Shown: piece by piece, positions 10,680 through 14,132 of the stretch
How positions within the stretch are numbered: the stretch's first letter is position 1
Layout of the letters: each line of letters begins with the position of its first letter
Source: Gemmatimonadota bacterium
GTDB lineage: Bacteria > Gemmatimonadota > Gemmatimonadetes > Gemmatimonadales > Gemmatimonadaceae
NCBI GenBank assembly: GCA_947471365.1
Contig: CANIWQ010000019.1
Span: 1-35,223 of the forward strand
Reading direction: 5' to 3'
Length of the DNA: 35,223 nt
Position numbers and translations under genes: made by a program
Notes under the pieces: model-generated
Seen by the model: the letters and a program-made list of their open reading frames with translations, nothing else
Database searches by the model: none
Told to the model about the DNA's origin: nothing

Positions 10680-10715
10680 TGGGTGTTTTGAATTTCGCGT
10701 CTGGAAGGACGTCGT

Positions 10716-10731
10716 TGCAACGGCCGTGCCA
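10716..10731 (-). promoter_or_regulatory. Sigma-54 (-24/-12) promoter in front of grpE
   Basis: On the - strand the sequence reads TGGCACG-GCCG-TTGCA, an exact match to the known RpoN consensus TGGCACG-N4-TTGCW, with GG and GC separated by exactly 10 bases. Transcription would start about 12 bases downstream, near 10705, leaving an untranslated leader of about 26 bases before the grpE ATG at 10679. It sits in the 179-base gap between cinA and grpE and points the right way. A sigma-54 promoter needs an enhancer-binding activator; no activator site was identified. Confidence 0.65.
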
Positions 10732-10858
10732 CGCCGGTCTGCCGGAATGCCAGTCCGCGTGGGGGCTCCCTAAACCTACGGGGCGGTCGGGCTTCCGTTT
10801 CGACTTTCGTCGCATTGGGGGCCTCGTCAGTAGGCACCGCCCTTCCCTCGCCGTGGGG

Positions 10859-13643: not shown

Positions 13644-14132
13644 TTATCCGAACAGCTTGTCGATTTCGTCTTCGGCACCCGCGAGCAATCCCGGCGCCTG
13701 CGGCTGCCCAGACGCATGTCGCGCGAACACTTGTTCGAACTGGCGCGTGAGCTCGTGCACCGTGTCCTTTATTTTGAGGCGCACGAGACCCAGCGTCGTG
13801 CGGTTATCGAACAGCGCCACGAGAATCACTCGGCGGGCAATGTCCGCAAGGTACATCGACTCTTTTTCACCCTGATGGAAGAGCGAGTTGAAGTCGTTTT
13901 CTCCGATGAGTTTCGCCAGCTGGTCGTTGGCGCTGAAGTCGGCGGCCGTCAGTGTGGCAAATGCCGTGGGGTCAAACGAGGGCTGTTCTCCCACCGTGGC
14001 CACGAGCTGACCGGTGCGGTCGACCAGCAGCGCGCAGCGCGCGTTGCTGTTGAAGAGAAACGTCTGGAGCGTGTGGGTAATTGCTCCGAAGTCGTCTTCG
14101 GTAAAGGACCAGCTCCCAGCGCCAACACTCAT
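13644..14132 (-). CDS. mglB: MglB-like roadblock/LC7 protein
   Basis: 162 residues with a roadblock/LC7 fold: alternating helices and strands with ARCALLVDRTGQLVATVGE, FDPTAFATLTAADFSANDQLA, and ESMYLADIARRVILVALFDNRTTLGLVRLKI. MglB proteins are dimers that act as GTPase-activating proteins for MglA and keep it at one cell pole. The C-terminal 35 residues are a charged helix and linker (QVFARHASGQPQAPG...AEDEIDKLFG), which in Myxococcus also influences nucleotide exchange. Position directly before mglA supports the assignment. The start ATG 14132 lacks an evident ribosome binding site. Confidence 0.88.
   Translation of the reverse strand: MSVGAGSWSFTEDDFGAITHTLQTFLFNSNARCALLVDRTGQLVATVGEQPSFDPTAFATLTAADFSANDQLAKLIGENDFNSLFHQGEKESMYLADIARRVILVALFDNRTTLGLVRLKIKDTVHELTRQFEQVFARHASGQPQAPGLLAGAEDEIDKLFG

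Follow-up and report, generated by a model that had tools for sequence, protein, structure and literature searches.

A sigma-54-type promoter before grpE-dnaJ and a predicted family-wide heat-shock regulon in Gemmatimonadota

Introduction

The main chaperones in a family of Gemmatimonadota are probably switched on by sigma-54 and not by the usual heat-shock sigma factor, as judged from the upstream regions compared in this study. The textbook control of bacterial heat-shock genes relies on sigma-32, or on repressors such as HrcA. The window, i.e. the whole stretch of 35,223 nucleotides that was analysed, is one contig of a 3.31-Mb genome and carries a -24/-12 sequence in front of grpE-dnaJ. 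We consider it likely that this sequence serves a sigma-54 promoter as its -24/-12 and forms part of a family-wide heat-shock regulon comprising dnaK, grpE-dnaJ, clpB, and hsp20, with secA added in one genus. The original prediction, which had placed GrpE and DnaJ under sigma-54 control, was largely right in substance and understated the scope.

Results

The grpE-dnaJ locus. Four relatives were found through GrpE in named genomes, all of them Gemmatimonadota. The features of the locus and its upstream neighbour are listed below. Elsewhere in the window, an MglB-like gene (13644-14132, minus strand) adjoins recR and dnaX.

12115-10859, minus strand: cinA, the upstream neighbour, followed by a 179-bp gap and then grpE
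10753-10739, minus strand: CTGGCATTCCGGCAG, a degenerate version of CTGCC-N5-GGCAG, the palindrome described below, with its right half preserved and its left half altered; consensus from the dnaK and grpE regions of relatives
10731-10717, minus strand: -24/-12 element TGGCACG GCCG TTGC (TGGCACGGCCGTTGC; GG-N10-GC), a sequence match conserved before grpE in relatives
About 10705, minus strand: transcription start predicted for sigma-54, 12 nt past GC and 26 nt before the grpE ATG, placed by the -24/-12 geometry, with which clpB start codons agree
10696-10691, minus strand: GAAATT (conserved GAnATT), phased with TTGC at a distance of 20 bp; it might serve an overlapping sigma-70-type promoter as its -10
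10679-10080, minus strand: grpE, an open reading frame matched by GrpE profiles (best E 3e-28)
10064-8943, minus strand: dnaJ (TIGR02349, E 1.5e-101), second gene of a presumed operon with grpE

The -24/-12 element is located inside the cinA-grpE gap, 37 nt ahead of the grpE ATG. On the minus strand, 10731-10716 has the sequence TGGCACG GCCG TTGCA, without a mismatch to TGGCACGNNNNTTGCW; it is the sole such match in the window, and the claimed fit to all fixed RpoN positions was reproduced. At one softer position the site departs from the consensus, with G where Y is expected ahead of TGG. Recomputing the geometry gave the same orientation toward grpE and the same predicted start as the original prediction.

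Chance and conservation before grpE. A full match had been called very unlikely by chance, a claim that fails for the match taken by itself. Five perfect matches to TGGCACGNNNNTTGC occur in the 3.31-Mb genome: one precedes grpE, another precedes a flgF-like flagellar gene, a third lies 143 nt ahead of a long ORF, and two fall within long ORFs. Allowing up to one mismatch, 115 matches were counted in the genome versus 151 for the reversed pattern, so that near-matches are not enriched. Because of the five perfect matches, two of them in coding sequence, and the lack of enrichment, the bare -24/-12 match at grpE proves little alone; on these comparisons, it gains meaning only from conservation in relatives. 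The flgF-like site (L003 1501-1515, minus strand) lies after a fliA-like gene, its perfect -24/-12 being part of an 11-bp tandem repeat (TGGCACGGACG TGGCACGGACG TTGC). Flagellar genes are a classical kind of sigma-54 target.

For the comparison, 99 genomes of the genus and family with readable DNA upstream of grpE were used. Matches with up to one mismatch were found upstream of grpE in 26 of these 99 relatives, compared to 1 with the reversed and 2 with the complemented pattern. With up to two mismatches the number rose to 56 of 99, versus 8 (reversed) and 5 (complemented). A spacing scan for GGYNY...TTGC before grpE bore out the conservation of GG-N10-GC, which was present in 57 of the 99 genomes (18 genera), any other spacing being found in at most five. 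Approximately 40% of the relatives are without GG-N10-GC before grpE, and several genera retain only TTGC and GAnATT. The T preceding GG is not conserved at the grpE and dnaK sites of relatives.

The dnaK element and the shared palindrome. A full dnaK gene was not found in the window's own assembly (G000), probably owing to an assembly gap; a near relative (G011) has one. Upstream of dnaK, GG(C/T)NC-N5-TTGC was found in 96 of 97 genomes, mostly 55-160 nt from the ATG. The GG-N10-GC spacing was shared by 96 genomes from 32 genera, with other spacings in at most 8 genomes, and both GG and TTGC were ~98% constant in the dnaK upstream profile. Around the dnaK site, the upstream regions of relatives revealed no further conserved promoter element, neither a -35/-10 pair nor GAnATT.

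An NtrC-like palindrome, CTGCC-N5-GGCAG, sits 10-11 bp upstream of GG before dnaK. Many genera have it at the corresponding position ahead of grpE; in the window's own genus, the grpE copy has a degenerate left half. We take the CC-N5-GG geometry of this shared box to be that of NtrC sites, and treat the likeness as a lead. The position of the box is constant and proximal to the promoter, which is unusual for enhancer sites. Box and element combined, the composite GYC-N5-GRC-N10/11-GG-N8-TTGC was present in 97 of 97 dnaK regions and 34 of 99 grpE regions, with practically no occurrence in shuffled sequence. A second copy of the palindrome was observed ~60-70 bp upstream of the dnaK GG in 11 of the 97 genomes and at ~90-100 bp in 7.

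Regulon search. When 118 genomes of the family were scanned with a tightened version of the composite, 159 matches were obtained versus 98 for a reversed control. Matches outside the known dnaK and grpE sites were fetched first and annotated afterwards, hence the gene identity was unknown when they were chosen; recurring sequences were favoured in picking them, so the proportions of genes are not unbiased. The composite was found before clpB at 21 loci, including the window's own genome and its nearest relative, and before hsp20-type genes at 7 loci. Two genomes of a single genus (L332 and L333) also have it ~220 nt ahead of secA. A few unrelated genes were also among the matches, as chance would give. 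Profile matches at example loci verified the ClpB, Hsp20, and SecA identities. The composite promoter sequence thus precedes several heat-shock genes (dnaK, grpE, clpB, and hsp20), plus secA in one genus.

The clpB loci share GG-N10-GC and the box with dnaK, and are without GAnATT. The nearest clpB ATGs lie at +13/+14 after TTGC, none being closer. These distances exclude TTGC as the -35 of those clpB genes and fit a sigma-54 start at about +12.

GAnATT and a possible second promoter at grpE. In most relatives, GAnATT keeps a constant 20-bp distance from the preceding TTGC at grpE, also where another 50 nt separate it from the ATG; in many genomes of several genera, the ATG follows GAnATT by 5-13 nt. 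TTGC/GAnATT was matched without GG in 23 genomes, and TTGT takes the place of TTGC in a few. All of this would suit a grpE promoter of the sigma-70 family with TTGC as -35 and GAnATT as -10, giving a leaderless or short-leader mRNA, in which GG and the box form a regulator site and sigma-54 has no role. TTGC/GAnATT as the only promoter of grpE was once our leading candidate; it was dropped since dnaK and clpB have the -24/-12 and the box without GAnATT and the clpB ATGs are too near. Furthermore, GAnATT is without the usual T of a -10.

The joint loss of GG and box points in the same direction, as it is expected of a separate promoter. Of the 79 genomes with TTGC/GAnATT, 45 have GG as well as the box or the right half of it, 21 have neither, and 13 are mixed. 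Counted by genus, both were present in 11, both absent in 8, and mixed in 5 and 1 (Fisher p 0.011, a guide only, as genera are not independent samples). That sigma-54 has no role at grpE, with TTGC/GAnATT as its only promoter, is unlikely in our view. The co-loss fits, perhaps, two superposed promoters that share TTGC, namely a sigma-54 promoter (box, GG, and GC) and a sigma-70-type promoter (TTGC and GAnATT). Across the window's own genome, GTTGC-N19-21-GANATT gave 5 matches versus 6 in the control, and no general promoter class was apparent there.

rpoN and candidate activators. The checks proposed with the original prediction turned up both rpoN and enhancer-binding-protein genes in the window's own genome. 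Its RpoN is complete, with all three domains. As all 85 good genomes of the family possess rpoN, its presence or absence is of no use as a test within the family. Only two strong enhancer-binding proteins were found in a relative whose genome measures 1.8 Mb and which retains the composite at grpE; orthologues of these two were found in 9 of the 9 genomes compared. In the window's own genome, the two candidate activators are:

G000 C1:6638: candidate activator 1, adjoining a histidine kinase gene
G000 C51:3244: candidate activator 2, resembling an orphan response regulator

No link to heat shock was seen in the gene neighbourhoods of the two.

CIRCE and groES. That no CIRCE is seen before grpE was confirmed, TTAGCACTC-N9-GAGTGCTAA being absent from the 179-bp gap; nevertheless, CIRCE control exists in the genus, on groES. 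The groES upstream regions of the window's genus (L140-L154) carry a clear CIRCE in most loci, together with sigma-A-like -10 sequences. CIRCE was not found at dnaK in the sequences examined. In this genus, to judge from these motifs, one part of chaperone control appears to lie with CIRCE and another with the sigma-54-type composite.

Discussion

Control of the chaperones by sigma-54 is favoured because of the -24/-12 sequence with its exact spacing, the lack of any other conserved promoter element at dnaK, and the distances of the clpB ATGs. The sigma-54 reading of grpE-dnaJ is supported and reaches beyond this operon to dnaK, clpB, and hsp20; GAnATT suggests a second promoter at grpE, whose control need not be exclusively by sigma-54. 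What the sequences show directly is the element with its spacing, the common box, the range of genes that carry them, and the genes for RpoN and activators; binding of sigma-54, the function of the box, the response to heat or other stress, and the second promoter are inferred from these.

Box and GG...TTGC might also form one long operator for a heat-shock repressor or activator that works with a sigma-70-type polymerase at all these genes. The constant distance of 10-11 bp between box and GG looks more like a single composite protein site than like a promoter with an enhancer, and the unconserved T ahead of GG would be in line with this. However, the second part of such an operator is a -24/-12 in sequence and exact spacing, a conserved -35/-10 pair is lacking near dnaK, and the clpB ATG distances fit a sigma-54 start, which makes the operator improbable. 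A chance consensus match without function, which the genome-wide counts and the two perfect matches within coding sequence would allow, was rejected on account of the conservation before grpE at an equal place and spacing in relatives and, with the composite common to other heat-shock genes, has a negligible probability.

Under the preferred reading, sigma-54 polymerase would bind GGYNC-N5-TTGC and remain inactive there; ATP-driven remodelling by an NtrC-type enhancer-binding protein would then activate it, presumably in response to heat or a different stress. The best candidate for the binding site of this activator is CTGCC-N5-GGCAG, the palindrome centred near -41 and 10-11 bp ahead of GG. 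At grpE, an overlapping promoter for basal supply probably makes use of TTGC too, as its -35, together with GAnATT as its -10; groESL would remain under CIRCE (HrcA-type) control. We offer only tentatively, and with some doubt, the more specific picture in which the core heat-shock response of the whole family, with DnaK, GrpE-DnaJ, ClpB, and Hsp20, starts from sigma-54 promoters, with an NtrC-type activator acting from a fixed box beside the polymerase (~-41), no DNA looping, and a second sigma-70-type promoter within the bases of the grpE promoter.

The putative regulon overlaps in its targets (dnaK, grpE, dnaJ, clpB, and small Hsps) with the sigma-32 regulon of Escherichia coli. It differs from it in the -24/-12 with GG-N10-GC and in the missing -10 element at dnaK. 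The HrcA/CIRCE regulon is represented in the window's genus by the control of groES; in the sequences examined, neither grpE nor dnaK had a CIRCE. In Myxococcus xanthus, the HsfA/HsfB two-component system controls lonD. The likeness lies in an NtrC-type regulator that switches a heat-shock gene; there it is one protease gene, whereas here it would be the DnaK-GrpE-DnaJ-ClpB set.

A text search of a study on the Desulfovibrio sigma-54 regulon (PMC4641369) showed no chaperone targets, and our literature search found no earlier report on Gemmatimonadota. Using position-specific matrices, sigma-54 control of GrpE, DnaK, DnaJ, GroES/EL, and IbpA has been predicted in Bacteroidota and Planctomycetota (PMC12316311, 2025). 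As here, a sigma-54 promoter class stands before chaperone genes in those predictions. Gemmatimonadota are absent from its main text, and no shared box is described in the passages considered; in our genomes, moreover, groES has CIRCE instead. We regard the system found here as a further variant of sigma-54 chaperone control, a kind already predicted in Bacteroidota and Planctomycetota (PMC12316311).

The idea lends itself to direct testing, as the composite motif is defined and two candidate activators are conserved. If the sigma-54 regulon is true, the main chaperones of these bacteria would not be transcribed from that promoter until an ATP-driven activator receives its signal, which would be a different control logic. 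Together with the predictions in Bacteroidota and Planctomycetota, this suggests that sigma-54 control of the heat-shock response may be common outside Proteobacteria.
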